From: Trichoderma breve
Taxonomy: Eukaryota; Ascomycota; Sordariomycetes; Hypocreales; Hypocreaceae
Direction of reading: 5' to 3'
Assembly: GCF_028502605.1 (NCBI RefSeq)
Contig: NC_079236.1
Location: 992,001 to 1,056,000 of the forward strand
DNA: 64,000 nt
Part shown: positions 8,349 through 63,080 of the stretch, piece after piece
Position numbering within the stretch: position 1 is the first letter of the stretch
Layout: each line of letters starts with the position of its first letter
Made by a program: the position numbers and the translations under genes
Notes under the pieces: generated by a model
The model's input: the letters and a program-made list of their open reading frames with translations, nothing else
Database searches by the model: none
What the model was told of the DNA's origin: nothing

Positions 8349-10835
8349 TTAACCATCCAGCAGACCTGCAGCCAAAGCTTCCAGGTCCTCCAATGTTTCA
8401 GGTTCCTGATCCACCTCAATAACCTTGCCTCCCTTCTTCTTCTTGCCGCCCTTGCTCTTCTTCTTGGCGTCTGAATCGTCTGAATCGTCCTGGAACCACT
8501 TCTTGGCCTTCTTCCGCGGCGGCTCAGCATCTGAGTCATCATCACTGCGATCCTCCCCAGCAATAGGCAGAGAGCGCAACAAAGCCAACGGATCTTCGCC
8601 GTCGCCGTTCCCGCCAAGCTCCGCATCAAAGCTCTCACCACCAGCCATCTCCATCGCTTCTCTCGCCTTTCTCTTCTCCTTCTTCTCTCTCTTCTTCTGC
8701 TTCGCGAGCGCCTTGTCGTCCACGTCAGCCTCCTTGACCCTGACCGTCTCGCTATCCAAGAACTTCTGTCGCTGCTCTTCTGCGGGACCTTGTTGCTTGA
8801 AGTCTTCTTCGTCTTGGAGCTCGTAGATTTCGTGCGCGTTGCCTTCTTCGTCAAACACGAGCTTCGACGAGCTGCCCATGAACTTGGCCATCTTCTTCTT
8901 TGACTGAAGGGCTTTCTCACGGCGTTTTGAATCGACGACGTATAAATCGTCGCCGCCTAGCGCTATGACTTTGGCATTGTTGATAGTCGCCTTGCCTGTA
9001 AGTGCATCGACCTCATCATCGTTTAGTCTTCTCTTTACAGACAAAAAGTCATCCTCTTCATCATCGTCTTCCTTGCCTCCATCCAGCACAAGTTTAGAGT
9101 AATGGCTTGACAAAACGTCCTGGTTCGTTCGTTCAAACATCTTGTCGTATTTCGTCCGCACCTCGGGCTTCTTCTTCTCCTTCTTCTTTTCGTACTCTCC
9201 GTCCAGATCCATGTCTGATTCTGAGTCGCTTGACATGCCTTGGCGGGGCGCGTTCTTTATCCTCTTGATATCCTCCCCCTTTTGAAATTTTATCTGTGGG
9301 GTTCCAGGCAGACCAAGGCTCGAGGCATATGCGTCCCAGTCGTGGTCGTCAAACTTGAACACTTCTTTGTCTTTTTGCAGGTGAATTGACCTTGTGTAAC
9401 TGATGAATGCCTTTTGGCCCAAGTATTTCAAGTCGGGGAACTTAAAACACATGTCCTGCAGATTATTCTTGATGCTCTTTTTCTTTTTCTCCTTGACGTG
9501 CACTTTTTGTATGGGAATCTTCTTGTGCTCTAGTCGCTTAATCATCCCTTCTTCTTCGCTGGGGTCGAGGAAGAGAACGGCACGGCCGTTGCTCTGGAAT
9601 CTGGCTGTTCGTCCCACACGGTGGATATACGTATCAGCATCTTCGGGGCAATCCGCCTGAATGACCCAGTCAACAGCAGGGAAATCGATGCCTCGCGCAA
9701 CCACGTCCGTCGCAAACAGACATGATGTCTTTGCAGCAGTGAATCTGTTTGTGATTTCCAGTCGTGCGATTTGTTTTTGACGGCCGTGCAGGTGAAGTAG
9801 CGGAATACCGGGCTGAAGATGTCGAAAGCTTTCGTAGACAAACCGGACTTGCTTGCCGGAGCTGAGGAAGACAATGATTTTGCTCTTGACGTTGGCTTTG
9901 ATAAAGCCATAAAGCGTATCAAGTTTTTCGGGGAGTGGGGTGACGATGTAGTGTTGTTGAAGGGTAGTGGGTGTTGCTGTCGTTGCGTCTTGGTGCACGG
10001 AGACGTATTCGGGATCTTTCAGGCTGAGTCGGGCAAGATCTGAAACTTTTTTGCTCTGAGTTGCGCTGAACATGAGTGTCTGGCGCGACTTGGGCAGATG
10101 CTCAACCAGCGCATCAACTGCAGATTGGAATCCCATGTCCATGATTCGATCCGCCTCATCCAACACCAAAATCTGCAAGTTGTTTGCATCGAAGCCGGCC
10201 GTCTGGTCCAAGTGCTGCAGCATTCGTCCTGGCGTGCAGACAAGGATATTCATTCGAAGCAACCGCTCAGCCTCCTCCTTCAGATTCTTTCCACCAATAA
10301 CCAACCCAGCTGAAAAGGCGTGGTGTCGTCCGATCTTGCGTAGCACTTCGAAAATCTGAACCGCCAGCTCTCGAGTTGGGGAGAGGATGAGAGCACCAAG
10401 GCCGTCGAATTCTGTCCATTGTTCGCGATAGAGCTTCTCCAGTACCGGTACCAAAAATGCCAGAGTCTTGCCGCTGCCCGTCTTCGCTGCACCGAGGATG
10501 TCTTTGCCCTGCAATGCCAACGGGATGGCTTGTTCCTGGATTTCGGTCATGTTGGTGAAGTGTGATGCGTGGAGGCCGGATGCCGTCGCAGGTGAAATGG
10601 CCGCCGACAGGTCAGCAAAAGTCTTCACCTTGCCAGACTTGGGGTCCTACGTAGAATCACGGTAAGTTACAACATCTAGGATAAATGCATTTGCGCCTCA
10701 TCCACTCACCAGCTGGGCAATGGCCTCCGCGAGTTTGTGCAGGTCTTCATGATCGCGCTTCCTCTTTTGCTTCTTGAGCTCTGTCTTGTTCGGCTTGTGC
10801 TGCGGCTTCTGCTTGCCGGCAGTTTTTGCAGGCAT
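8349..10835 (-). CDS. dbp4: ATP-dependent RNA helicase Dbp4 (DEAD-box)
   Basis: Two exons (10710-10835, 8349-10646) give 807 aa. The start MPAKTAGKQ is preferred over an in-frame upstream ATG because the lysine-rich N-terminus from there is family-like. The helicase core is complete: Q motif near residues 52-79, AKTGSGKT (96-103), PTREL (132-136), TPGR (180-183), DEAD (205-208), SAT (236-238), VVARGID and HRVGRTAR. A long acidic/lysine-rich C-terminus with nucleolar-type runs follows. Dbp4 (Hca4 in yeast) works in the nucleolus on early 40S assembly, helping release the U14 snoRNA from pre-rRNA. The length matches the family. Confidence 0.95.
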
Positions 10836-10980: not shown

Positions 10981-11553
10981 AGCGAAAATGGAGTACAGGG
11001 TAGCTTCAGAAGCATGTCTTTTGGGCACGTCGCTCCTCATCCAATGAAGCAATACTTTGGAGATTTCAATAAACATGTAGAGATGATAAAGGAATTATCA
11101 ATTCTCTGCTCTTGTTTTTACTCTCGTCGGCAGCTAGAAGGCATTCATAGAATCATTCGCTCTTGTGTGTTGAGTTTGAAGAGACTCGACGGAAGATATA
11201 GAATGAGCCAACAGAAAAGAGACTGCCAGCAAATAAGTCAGGTAGCCCAGTGACCTCCATTAGCCTAATATCACATACATGGTTAGCCGTAATAGCCTTA
11301 CAAAAATGAGGTGTACCAAGATTAGCTTGTGACATAGCAACAATCACTTGGATATTTACACTGAGTTTACGAGTGACACTACCTGAGTACCAAGGGATTG
11401 AATACGCGTAGAGGAGTTGCTCCACATTGCCCTTAGTACTGCCCGTCTAAGGCCAGATCATCAAAACCCCAGGTAAAATAAAATACAAAAATAAAAAGTC
11501 CGGCCATACAAGAACAAGGAGAGAATCAAATGTTCAAGAAATAAAAAAAGAAC
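10981..11553. other. Intergenic between dbp4 and the tRNA-Cys pair
   Basis: The sequence is AT-rich with no convincing reading frame or RNA. The last bases before 11554 are an A-run on this strand, which is the oligo-T terminator of the first tRNA-Cys gene read on the minus strand. Confidence 0.55.
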
Positions 11554-11684
11554 AGGACCGAACGCGGATCGAACGCGTGACCTAGAGATCTGCAATCTCT
11601 CGCTGCCAAGTAAGTTAGTTATTGTGTAACAGAATGGGAATTATGTTTCAGATTCGCTTACCTCTACCACTGAGCTATCGATCC
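11554..11684 (-). tRNA. tRNA-Cys (GCA), copy A, interrupted in the D stem by a GT-AG intron
   Basis: The minus strand folds as a complete 72-nt tRNA when bases 11603-11661 (59 nt) are removed. The acceptor stem is GGATCGA with TCGGTCC. The D arm is GCTC/GAGC, the anticodon stem AGAGA/TCTCT with loop TTGCAGA (anticodon GCA), and the T arm ACGCG/CGCGT. The unpaired base 73 is U, as usual for tRNA-Cys. Box A and box B are intact, and an oligo-T terminator follows. The insert falls between tRNA positions 24 and 25, not at the usual 37/38 site. It starts GTAAGC, ends GGCAG, and has CTAAC with the branch A at 11615, 12 nt before its end. It looks like an mRNA-type intron. Confidence 0.85.
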
Positions 11685-11776
11685 CTTGTGATGGAGCGGG
11701 ATTTTAGTTAGTCTTATAAAACTTGGCCAACGGACACGGCAAAAAGGGAGCAAGTTGAAAAAAAGAGAAAAAAGAA

Positions 11777-11905
11777 AGGACCGAACGCGGATCGAACGCG
11801 TGACCTAGAGATCTGCAATCTCTCGCTACCAGATTTGTTAGTGTCTAAGTTGAAACTGGAAATTGTGTTCAGATAAGCTTACCTCTACCACTGAGCTATC
11901 GATCC
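11777..11905 (-). tRNA. tRNA-Cys (GCA), copy B, interrupted in the D stem by a GT-AG intron
   Basis: This second copy lies 92 bp upstream of copy A in transcription direction. Its two exon parts (23 and 49 nt) are identical to copy A, so the same cloverleaf and GCA anticodon form after removal of 11826-11882 (57 nt). The insert again sits between positions 24 and 25, begins GTAAGC, carries CACTAACA near its 3' end and ends TGGTAG. Outside those signals the two inserts have diverged strongly. An oligo-T terminator is present downstream. A tRNA intron at this place does not fit the usual endonuclease substrate after nucleotide 37. Confidence 0.85.
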
Positions 11906-12120
11906 ACTCGTTATATCAATGACTTTTCTAAAATGCTTATAAGTCTACTTAGTTGCTATGGGCCTATCAACGTGCCAAACCAAACGCCTGAAATCATCCG
12001 CACGCGCAAAGCGACGCTGTATTGTTTTTCTTTCTTTCAGTTCCATACCAATTGCGCTCCAGTAGATGTTTCATAGTTCAAACAAGCCGATTTCTCTTCT
12101 ACTTTCAGCCCTATGCAAAG

Positions 12121-22117: not shown

Positions 22118-22225
22118 GGCGGGTTGGTGGAGTGGTCTAACACGTGCGACTCAAGATAATATCTTGATCCTTCAAAAGGATTTCGCATCTCGCAAGAGGC
22201 GTGGGTTCGAATCCCACACCCGTCA
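22118..22225 (+). tRNA. tRNA-Leu (CAA) with canonical intron
   Basis: The acceptor stem GGCGGGT pairs with ACCCGTC (one G-U), and the discriminator is A. The anticodon stem is TGCGA/TCGCA with anticodon CAA at 22152-22154. An intron of about 26 nt (22156-22181) sits directly after position 37, the normal place. The long variable arm (CTCGCAAGAG region) is typical of tRNA-Leu, and the T arm is GTGGG/CCCAC. An oligo-T terminator follows. It is a useful contrast to the tRNA-Cys copies in this window, whose introns lie in the D stem. Confidence 0.93.
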
Positions 22226-45390: not shown

Positions 45391-46857
45391 ATGCGTTTGG
45401 CCGCCCTCGCCCTCGCCCTGCTTGACTTGGCTCTGCAGGCTCGAGCTCAAGCAGTCTTTGCTCATGTCATTGTACGCATTGAACTCTTCTAACACGCTAC
45501 TTTGCATTGCTAACTGGTCCAGGTTGGAAATACGTATGCATACACTCAGGCTGATTGGGCGTCGGACATCAGGGCCGCAGCCGCCGCAGGAATCGACGGC
45601 TTTGCTTTGGATATCGGATTCCAAGATACTGTATCTGGAACGAAGCCGGTAATTGGGGCGCTGAACAATGCGTACAATGCCGCCGATGCCGCAGGTTTCA
45701 AGCTCTTCATCTCCTTTGACTATTTAGCTCAGGGCCCGTGGGACGCTGCCGACGTCGTCAATGTGCTCAACACATATAATTCGCATCCCAGCGCATTTAA
45801 GTGGCAAAACACTGGCAAGCCTGTGGCCTCCACCTTCGAGGGTCCAGGCAATGCAGGAGACTGGGTCGGCATTAAACAGCAAACAAATGTTTTCTTCATC
45901 CCTGATTACTCAAGTCAAGGACCCCAGGGAGCGGCCGCCCTCCCGGCTGTGGATGGTCTCTTCTCGTAAGTAAACCCTTGAGAACGGGGAAGCGAGAAGA
46001 ATGCATTCTAATCATGTTTCACAGCTTTGCTGCCTGGCCCAACGGCCCCAATGACATTACAATCGATGCGGATCAACAATACGTCCAGGCGCTTAACGGT
46101 AGACCTTACATGTCAGTATTCCCACATCTAGTTGATGTCCTCTATGAACTCACAAGTATTATGTAGGATGCCCGTCTCCCCATGGTTTTACACGAATCTT
46201 CCAGCCTTCAACAAGAACTGGCTATGGAGGGGTGATGACTTGTGGCACCAGCGATGGCAACAGGTCTTGCAAATCAACCCTCCTTTGGTCGAAATCCTGA
46301 CCTGGAACGACTACGGCGAGAGTCACTACGTCGGACCATTGCCTCCCGCGGCTATCCAGAACCAGTCGCTGCCCGAAGGCTCTTGGTACGTGGAGAACAT
46401 TCCTCACAACGCATGGTTGAACGATTTGCCCTATTATATTGCGCAATATAAGAAGCAACCACTGCCCAACGAGAACCACGTTACCATCTGGTACCGCCTC
46501 AACCCGGGAACTGCTTGCTCTGCCGACGGAACCCCTTGCAACACCGTCACTCAAGGCCAGACTCAATTCGCACCACAACAGTGTGACGTTGACGCCATCT
46601 ACTTCACTGCCTTTGTGCCGTCGTCTGCTACCGCTACAGTCCACGTCACCATTGGTAACAACGCGCCCGTCTCCGTTACCGCCCCTGCTCCTGGCATCTT
46701 CCACTCTAGCGTTCCGTTCAACGGCCAGACCGGCGCCGTTTCGATCTCGGTAACTGCATCGGGAATTAACCAGATTGGACCGGTTTCATGCCCAGCGATC
46801 ACAACTGCCTGCAATAATGGCAACGTGAACTGGAACGCCTGGGTCGGTGGTTCTTAA
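45391..46857 (+). CDS. Secreted alpha-1,3-glucanase (mutanase), GH71
   Basis: Four exons (45391-45471, 45523-45965, 46025-46111, 46167-46857) give 433 aa. A signal peptide (MRLAALALALLDLALQARA) precedes VFAHVIVGNTYAYT, the GH71 start. Conserved GH71 blocks include GIDGFALDIG, FKLFISFDY, MPVSPWFYTNLPAFNKNW and EILTWNDYGESHYVGP. The enzyme cuts alpha-1,3-glucan in fungal cell walls, in mycoparasitism or in own-wall remodelling. The C-terminal ~130 residues form a beta-rich module with several cysteines. I see no clear CBM24, which some Trichoderma mutanases carry. Exon 1 ends in frame before the conserved VGNTYAY block. Confidence 0.93.
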
Positions 46858-59475: not shown

Positions 59476-62400
59476 TCAACTGTCCCAAATGGCACCATAG
59501 GCCGGGATACCCCTGGTCTCTAGTCCATATACCACCTTTTTAGTGATCTTTTCATTGGCAATGATGATGACGGCTTCGGCGCCAAAGTCCTTGGCCAGGT
59601 TGTAGCCCATGCGAACGAGATCGGGCCGGCCCTGGGTTCGGGTATCATGGATGACGGCGCCGGGAATAGTTCCCTTGATAGTATCCATAATCTTCTTACC
59701 AAACGTCTTTTCAGGCGAAGCAGCTGACCAGATAAGCTGAGTGGGACAGCTTGGTTGCGCGATGTGGCCCAGCATGGGACCGATGCCAGATCCTGTAGCA
59801 ATGACGACAACACGATTGAACAATGTGGCAATGCGCATAACACCGCATGTCGGAAGGCCACGGACCCAGATGCTTGTGGGGGGGTTTTGAATACACGCCT
59901 TAGTCCAATCGCCAGCATTGGATACCACGAGAGAGTAACCTGGCGCAATACCATCTTCGAGGTTAGCCTGAGGGGCTGGGATCGTCGCAAAGGAGTGCCA
60001 CTCAATGAGTGGGCGGTGGGATAGGCGTGTAAAGCTGCCGTTGACAGGGATGGTGTAGTCAAAGTGCAGACGGATAGCGTGATCCGACAGCGGCTCGGCA
60101 TTGACCTTGACTTTGCGGAGGAAGATCCAAGAGGAAGCAACGCTGCATGTGGCAACGCCGAGCATCCAAAACGCCGGCGTCTTGACAAGTGCAATCCCAA
60201 CATCCTCTCCTACTGGGGTAGAATCGTAAACGGAGACAACAGTCTTGGCCCAGAAAAGCGCAAGCGTGGTCCACCCCATGAAGCGGTGCATCTTCTCAAA
60301 CATGTTGTGACTGGGCTTGCGAAACATGGGTAAGGCAGAGGCAAGGATAAGACAACACAGCGCACAGAGAAGCCACGAGACCACTAGGTTGGCTAAAGAG
60401 TACCCAGATGGTTGTCGATGGAGCTGAAAGCGGGCAACTGTGGCCTGGATCGTAGAGCCAAGGAGCCACGCGGTTGCGCATATACCAGCAGCAGAGTGGA
60501 TGCCGCCAAGATGGTAGATTTTGGCACATCGGCGGCGAATCCAGAATGGGAAGGACTTGGGAACAGAGCAAGAGATGGTGTAAAGAACGTTTATGACGAC
60601 ATCTTGGCGGATGAGAACACCGGTGACCAGATTAGCCGCAGTGATAGTCGCGAGCCATTCGACTTTGGGGTTGAGAAGCAGGACGGCGATGAGAACACCA
60701 ATGTTAATGAGACCAACGAGGCTGAACAAAACGCGATAAACAATGAGAACACGCTTTTTGAGACCTCTCCATGGCTTGGGCCACTTCTTTTCGGGAATAT
60801 CTCTCAACAAATCGAGCGACTTTTCGGTCTGCTCCTCTTGCGCCTTGGCAGAGGCGGCCGTTAGAGTCGAAGATGAAGAAACGGACCGAAGACCGACCAA
60901 AGAGCCAGACTTGTCACTCTTGGTTCCCGGCAGAGCAGCTGGATGAAAGGTAGAACTGAACACTGTTGAAGATTCAGAGATTGTGGGAGAGGCCGGTCCG
61001 ATGGCCAGCATGCGTAGAGATTTCTTGTCAATCTTGCCATTTGCCGTGGTAGGAAACTCATCTAGGAGATGAATGCTAGATGGCACAGCATAGTATGGTT
61101 GAAGTTTGCGAGTGTGCTCCAGAATGGCTTCGCCATCTTGGGTAGAAGGGACTGCAAACCCATGGATTTCTCCATCAATCAAGAGCGCACAGGCACGAGT
61201 GACACCTGGCGCTGAGGCCATGGATGAAGAAACGCCATCCAATTCAACACGGAAACCCTGGTAACGAGCAGCATATTAGATTCCGTTCCTCACAGAAGCG
61301 CTACGGCAACACGGCCCACAAACAAATATGTGTAAAAACGGGAACTCACCTTGACTTTGACCTGATCGTCGACTCGACCGAGAATTTCAATGGAGCCATC
61401 AGGTCGCCACTTTCCCAAATCACCGGTACAATACATTTTAGATCTATTATTGTGAGACAAAACAAGTGTGTCAGTCAATATCCCACACTTTCACGGGGAT
61501 CTGAGCAAGCAGATCCCGGGCTGAGAAAACACTCTTGACAAGCACTCCCTTGAGAAAACTCACCCATCATTGGTAAAGGGATCTGGAACGTAAGACTCCT
61601 TTGTCTTGGCCTCAAGGCCAACGTAACCGCGAGACACTCCGTATCCGCCGGCCCACATAGTACCGGGTTCACCTACCGGTACAGGACTCCCATTGTCATC
61701 GAGGATGTAGACGTTGTTATTGGGGGTAGGGCGGCCGATAGATAGGCTGTCCCCAACAATGTGTTTCTGCATAGTGTTGACAATGGTTGTCTCCGTGGGG
61801 CCGCAGCTGTTCCAGTATGTTGCATGCTTGGCCCACAGATCAGCTAGGCTAAGGGGTAGGTTAGTACACGTAGACACTCGAAAGAAAACGTCCAAGGAAG
61901 GGAGGTTTAGCGGGGATCGACTTACTCTTGTGAAGTAGGTTCACCAGCAGTGGCAACGACTTTGATCTTGGGATACTTGGTAGGAGGGTACTTGGATAGA
62001 ATAGTCGGTGTGCAAATCAAGGTATCCAGCTAAATCAACCATTTTCATCTCATGTTAGCCCAATTCACCGCCAAGCGTAGCAATTTGGTGTAATCCATCA
62101 TTCAGGATTCTCCCTCCCTCTCTGACACTCACCAGCTCAATAGCGGGTTCCCACTTGGAACCCCGGATGACAAGGGTGCCACCGTTACACAGGCATGCAA
62201 AGATTTCCCAAGCAGCTGGCACTCGAATATTAGTAATGTGAAATGGAACTGGGGTGTGTGAATTCATCTCAGGGCAAGCAACATACCCATGTCAAAACTT
62301 ATGTTCAGAACTTGTCCCACCCGGTGACCTGGTCGAATACCCAGGTTTCCGGGAGACATACAGACAAGATTGGCAACATTTCTATGTGTAACGTCGACGC

Positions 62401-63080
62401 CCTTGGGCTTACCCGTTGTACCTAACTCGCAACTTTTAGTTTTCAGCTGCTAACTGGCAGGGAGGGTGGGTATAGCAGCTGCGGCCTCGGCGCTGCTAGT
62501 GAGACCTCGAAGAAATGCACGTACCGGATGTGTAAATGATGTAACATCCACCATCAGAAGTGGCCAAATCCACCCATTTTCCATCATAGGTCAAGTCGTC
62601 CAGCTGCTGCTGCTGCTGCTGCTCGATTATGACAGGAGTGGCATCGGGGCAGAGGTCACGGATGCGATGAACAGTCGATGATAGGCAGCAAACGATGTTG
62701 CCGCCAGACTGCTCAAAAACATGCCGTATAGTCGAGTCCGGAACAACGCCCCCATCAAGAGGAACATACTGGGCGCCACAGGAGAGGATGGCCCAAATGC
62801 CCACCACCATCTCGGCGCTCCTTTTCACAACGAGAGGGACCCTCTGGTGAGGGCGTACACCCAGGCTGCGGAGTTCAGCGGCCAAGGCCTGAGCCCGAGC
62901 ACCGAGCTGGCGGTATGTAATTTGCCTGGTGGTTGCACCAGACAAGTCATGGAGGGCCACATTGTCAGGGAAAGACCTGACATGATGGTAGAAGGATGAT
63001 GTGACGGTTGGGAAAGGGCACGGCAGCCTGGGGCCATACTGCATTGCAGTATAGTCCAAAGGGGGACTTGACATCTCCAT
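59476..63080 (-). CDS. Adenylation domain fused to a membrane flavoreductase (TmpA-like), NRPS-like
   Basis: Seven exons (62525-63080, 62287-62421, 62133-62215, 61926-62029, 61564-61848, 61350-61443, 59476-61257) join in frame to 1012 aa. The first half is an AMP-binding domain: [41 protein letters not shown] and TANGKID. No carrier (T) domain with a DSL-type serine follows. Instead there are about six transmembrane segments ([20 protein letters not shown] onward) and a C-terminal FAD/NAD(P)-binding oxidoreductase part ([13 protein letters not shown]). The C-terminal half resembles Aspergillus TmpA, a membrane flavoprotein linked to conidiation. Substrate and product are unknown. A glutamine run (six Q) coded by CAG repeats lies in the adenylation domain near 62605. 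Confidence 0.85.

Follow-up and report, generated by a model that had tools for sequence, protein, structure and literature searches.

In the window, i.e. the whole 64,000-nucleotide stretch of Trichoderma breve DNA that was analysed, we identify a pair of minus-strand genes that most probably are functional nuclear genes for tRNA-Cys(GCA), which Pol III transcribes and whose D stem is interrupted by a spliceosomal intron. The splicing of nuclear tRNAs is regarded as a system separate from that of pre-mRNAs, and a tRNA in need of the spliceosome would, if this reading is true, join the two.

The first gene of the pair occupies positions 11554-11684 and the second 11777-11905, with exons, intron and U73 included in each case. 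In gene 1, exon 1 (11662-11684; tRNA nucleotides 1-24) contains the A box and ends in the AG that directly precedes the 5' splice site. It is followed by a 59-nt insert of the form GTAAGC...CTAAC...CAG (11603-11661), whose branch-site motif CTAAC lies at 11614-11618 with the branch A at 11615, and then by exon 2 (11554-11602), which begins with C25 and includes the anticodon GCA, the B box and U73. Gene 2 has the same sequence in exon 1 (11883-11905) and exon 2 (11777-11825), which are separated by a 57-nt insert of the form GTAAGC...CTAAC...TAG (11826-11882; CTAAC at 11837-11841, branch A at 11838). Both genes are preceded on the same strand by TATAA, starting at -34 in gene 1 (11714-11718) and at -36 in gene 2 (11937-11941), and are followed by a likely Pol III terminator, respectively a run of seven Ts (11543-11549) and one of six (11768-11773); A and B boxes are recognizable by eye in both. 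Exon 1 ends in GGTAGAG at its 3' end, and the D stem is completed by the C that forms the first base of exon 2. Removal of the insert yields the same 72-nt cloverleaf from the two genes; it has all four stems, GCA as its anticodon and, at position 73, the cysteine identity base U73. The preliminary description had placed inserts of 59 and 57 nt between nucleotides 24 and 25 and held their removal to be needed for the cloverleaf, and this is borne out at the above minus-strand positions. Neither gene has an intron at 37/38.

The motifs GTAAGC, CTAAC and AG had likewise been described correctly. Both inserts and their borders read AG/GTAAGC...CTAAC...YAG/C, with GAG/GTAAGC at the 5' splice site, and in both the branch A is 12 nt from the insert end with no AG between the branch site and the 3' end. 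Thus, each has a GTRAGY 5' splice site after AG and a CTRAY branch site at the usual distance from a YAG end. Seven consecutive base pairs are possible between this 5' splice site and the U1 5' end. Since exon and insert each end in AG, there are three cutting registers that give one and the same product, and one of these is GT...AG. A search of both strands of the window with the pattern GTRAGY-N35-45-CTAAC-N6-16-YAG, which was chosen after the inserts were known, recovered two matches, both of them the tRNA-Cys inserts (mean of 0.2 in 20 random sequences of matched dinucleotide make-up). In a looser test, five of 255,764 window stretches of 57 or 59 nt were intron-like from end to end.

Comparison of the two genes revealed distinct conservation of exons and inserts. 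The exons are identical at 72/72 bases, whereas the insert cores, i.e. the inserts minus GTAAGC, CTAAC and the terminal AG, align with 29 matches, 12 mismatches and 8 gap columns (exons versus insert cores: Fisher p = 1.6e-6, gap columns left out). Within the inserts the splice-signal positions are kept at 13/13 as against 29/41 of the other positions (one-sided p = 0.023). The inserts are homologous, their alignment score being reached by 0/500 shuffles, which implies that the insertion predates the gene duplication; therefore, the two copies are not independent and the two genes amount to one observation, partly counted twice. Gene conversion alone, as an account of these differences, would have to leave out the middle of a 130-base gene. 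Fixed exons flanking a drifting insert are what selection for the spliced product would be expected to yield, and the constancy of the exons together with the kept splice signals points to the inserts being introns rather than marks of decay.

The pair does not stand alone in the genome: a third tRNA-Cys(GCA) gene is found on contig C3 (C3:2744327-2744412; Rfam 58.6 bits; TATAA at -54). It has an intact D arm and a canonical 12-nt intron at 37/38; the genome check proposed in the preliminary description did, in other words, recover a further tRNA-Cys(GCA). Its spliced form and the window genes are the same in 60/74 columns: they agree in the D stem, the anticodon arm and the variable region, and its acceptor and T stems differ from theirs but remain paired. 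The genome hence has at least three tRNA-Cys genes. Because the third needs only the endonuclease, the window genes cannot be called essential; of the earlier proposal of spliceosome-dependent maturation, spliceosomal removal stands as the account best supported by the sequence, and a strict dependence of the tRNA-Cys supply on it does not, given the third gene. This gene also lends some weight to the alternative that the window pair is dead or goes unspliced while the third tRNA-Cys does the work, as does the supposition, in a 2014 review of tRNA introns, that a D- or T-arm insertion in one of many synonymous genes marks a pseudogene (PMC4090602). Nevertheless, we consider this alternative improbable, as it is at odds with exons that have stayed identical despite the drift of the insert, with the full retention of the splice signals, and with TATA boxes and terminators that are all in place.

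We also searched the genome (38.5 Mb in 9 contigs) for further tRNA-Cys(GCA) genes. A BLAST-type search with the 72-nt mature sequence matched only the window genes; having missed the third gene, it cannot prove the absence of further copies. With the Rfam tRNA model, 63/1209 candidates across the genome were scored; the resulting tRNA list is therefore not a complete one, and the window's own tRNA-Leu is not on it. An anticodon-arm pattern with at most three mismatches gave 256 matches as against 86 in a reversed control; the two exact ones are the window genes, and nine of the nearest do not look tRNA-like by eye. The pattern TTGCAR-N16-TTCRANYC gave 18 matches, with 5/5 pairing in both stems only in the window genes, and AGTGGT-YTGCAR-GTTCRANYC a single one, namely the third tRNA-Cys (reversed control, 3). 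A 17-base arm with at most two mismatches was found at 15 places, comprising the three tRNA-Cys genes and 12 others, four of which were run through ARAGORN and gave no tRNA. A CTGCAR pattern had 12 matches, a pattern-level count in which the letters were examined for five. For the interrupted D arm itself, the GTAAG form of the intron pattern (GTAAG...CTRAC...B-box) had eight matches, two of them the window genes and the other six candidate places on C6, C2, C8 and others (control, 10), and the GTGAG form 11 candidate matches (control, 5). Two scans of viral contigs for relatives gave no match.

A default Rfam scan of the window detected neither gene of the pair; with lax filters the Rfam tRNA model recovered gene 1 at 44.8 bits with a large D-arm insertion, and gene 2 gave no match at E<=1. 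ARAGORN run without introns reported no tRNA anywhere in the window, and run with introns it misread the two genes as tRNA-Lys and tRNA-Ile. A custom tRNA model (R1) scored genes 1 and 2 at 70.5 and 69.7 bits; as the spliced tRNA-Cys sequence was part of the input for this model, and tRNA-Thr genes likewise reach 60-67 bits with it, the scores are evidence for tRNA shape and not for identity. Comparable genes may accordingly be missed elsewhere, since ARAGORN misreads such tRNAs and the default Rfam scan passes over them. The window also contains a tRNA-Leu(CAA) gene with a canonical anticodon-loop intron (22118-22225, plus strand; Rfam 50.2 bits; 33-nt intron by ARAGORN).

A different route for removal of the inserts would be cutting by the tRNA splicing endonuclease, followed by ligation, at a non-canonical place. 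Such a process is described for Cyanidioschyzon merolae and supposed for nucleomorphs, whose nuclear-type tRNA genes are, as here, interrupted in the D arm (PMC9602550, PMC4090602), and a review states that some eukaryotic endonucleases can take the non-canonical D-arm introns of those algae (PMC4090602). However, the C. merolae introns are tied to bulge-helix-bulge motifs and the endonuclease, unlike the present inserts, and those of the Guillardia nucleomorph are 3-24 nt in length as opposed to 57-59 nt here (PMC9602550, PMC4090602). At the junctions of the window genes a strict bulge-helix-bulge was formed in 0/6 gene/register combinations, a count made without a positive control, and the best attempt reached at most 3/4 pairs in the central helix and at most 2/4 in the exon helix. 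Moreover, the endonuclease pathway has no use for GT, CTAAC and YAG, and the insert is at 24/25 and not at 37/38; removal by this enzyme is hence, in our view, highly unlikely.

Returning to the spliceosomal reading, folding predictions suggest an order of events. When the insert is left in, the cloverleaf is predicted at -13.0 kcal/mol and the best precursor folds at -32.8 and -32.3 kcal/mol, with the spliced cloverleaf at -23.2 kcal/mol. As the insert-bearing cloverleaf lies 19-20 kcal/mol above the best precursor fold, splicing probably precedes tRNA folding. We therefore envisage that Pol III would make a pre-tRNA-Cys carrying a 57-59-nt U2-type intron between nucleotides 24 and 25, in which U1 would read AG/GTAAG and U2 the CTAAC branch site; the spliceosome would then join the exons, whereby the D stem becomes whole again and a 72-nt tRNA results, which could fold and enter the usual processing. 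The tRNA splicing endonuclease would be bypassed by the window genes, as they are without a 37/38 intron.

The TATA box, A box, B box and T-run of each gene are consistent with transcription of both by Pol III. Among 30 other tRNA genes of the genome, which are the best-scoring ones only, TATAA occurs between -70 and -20 in 7/30 (10% in shuffled upstream sequence) and a run of five or more Ts within 40 bases in 29/30. No run of four Ts is present in either tRNA-Cys insert or in the insert of the U6 gene described below, and we infer that Pol III would read through the intron. The pair lies between a DEAD-box helicase gene on the minus strand (8349-10646) and an open frame on the plus strand (from 11992), so that read-through is conceivable and the inserts might be regular mRNA-type introns within an extended Pol II transcript across the tRNA genes, with the tRNA released from it or not made at all. 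We regard this as very unlikely, as the borders of both inserts fall precisely at the points that the cloverleaf requires, either gene comes with a TATA box, A and B boxes and a T-run of its own, and the absence of T4 runs from the inserts differs from their presence in 3/6 window mRNA introns, albeit a small sample.

A second Pol III RNA of the same genome appears to be interrupted in a like manner. We recovered one significant U6 match in the genome (C3:3415326-3415394), which scores 34.7 bits, below the gathering score of 44, and spans positions 1-73 of the 105 in the model; the next match has E = 0.4, and this uniqueness refers to the 47/2488 candidates that were scored. Weak U6 matches (E<=10) were obtained in 10/14 prokaryote control genomes, none above the cut-off. 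On the minus strand at C3:3415241-3415340, the stretch behind the match consists of CCTGCACTAAGGAT, then GTAAGT...TACTAAT...CTGCAG, then GACACGCTCAATCAAAGAGAAGC, i.e. there is an insert after GGAT, which in U6 is followed by GACACGC. Rfam gave no match on this 100-base piece alone. The insert (GTAAGT...CTAAT...CAG) is 59 nt long, the length of the gene 1 insert, and its branch A is 12 nt from the end, which is the geometry of the tRNA inserts. Alignment does not relate them in sequence: the scores of the two tRNA inserts against the U6 insert were reached by 282 and 32 of 1000 shuffles. Given the U6 insert and its geometry, an mRNA-type intron is probably already spliced from a Pol III RNA, U6, in this fungus. 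If this is the only U6, then GT-AG splicing from a Pol III RNA would be vital, and the chief argument against the tRNA reading would be gone. Together, the kept signals at the exact cloverleaf boundary, the lack of a bulge-helix-bulge and the U6 insert of the same kind make spliceosomal removal the best-supported reading at the level of sequence; both this removal and the use of the resulting tRNA in translation are what we infer for the window genes.

Among Pol III RNAs, U6 is already known to carry spliceosomal introns. The mRNA-type introns of fungal U6 snRNA genes likewise interrupt a small RNA made by Pol III and combine GT-AG ends with a branch site, but here a tRNA is the host, its A and B boxes are internal and its fold is broken by the insert. 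Fungal U3 snoRNA also has spliceosomal introns, though U3 is not a tRNA. The canonical 37/38 introns, such as that of the third tRNA-Cys (12 nt), differ in place and length and have neither GT-AG ends nor a branch site. According to a 2017 paper, no small structured RNAs apart from U3 and U6 were known in which an intron is a frequent occurrence (PMC5832005). Searches of the open-licence PubMed Central literature turned up no paper on a spliceosomal intron within a tRNA gene, and the string 'spliceosom' occurs nowhere in the text of a 2014 review of tRNA introns (PMC4090602). As far as this search extends, a tRNA is a new host for a spliceosomal intron and, if the reading is true, would join U6 as another class of Pol III RNA on which the spliceosome naturally acts.

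As to origin, a mature tRNA might have acquired the intron through reverse splicing, with a DNA copy of the interrupted RNA made afterwards, which would explain the 24/25 intron and the missing 37/38 intron together; this speculative scenario, to which we give only limited credence, includes a tRNA-Cys supply that has since been partly spliceosome-dependent, with cysteine decoding tied to splicing capacity. A spliceosome-dependent tRNA would in itself open to direct testing the notion that abundant RNAs acquire introns by reverse splicing.

Finally, we compared the inserts with mRNA introns of the window. These come from a single gene on the minus strand (59479-63080) coding for an NRPS-like protein with an AMP-binding domain, whose six GT-AG introns (n=6) were placed by alignment to P0121; over the last exon the protein is 98% identical to one from T. 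camerunense. The introns are 71-120 nt long and begin with GTGAGT (three), GTAAGT, GTATGT and GTACGT; T is at +6 in 6/6, and CTRAY is present in 5/6, 12-27 nt from the end. The tRNA inserts are therefore of the same kind, but the earlier statement that they match the mRNA introns of this genome exactly in form and length is too strong, as they measure 57-59 nt as against 71-120 nt and GTAAGC is seen in 0/6. The window further codes for an Esf1 protein with 96% identity to that of T. harzianum. An additional open frame on the plus strand (46132-46854) matches only positions 182-370/375 of glycosyl hydrolase family 71 and, given this coverage, is predicted to be an exon or a partial gene.
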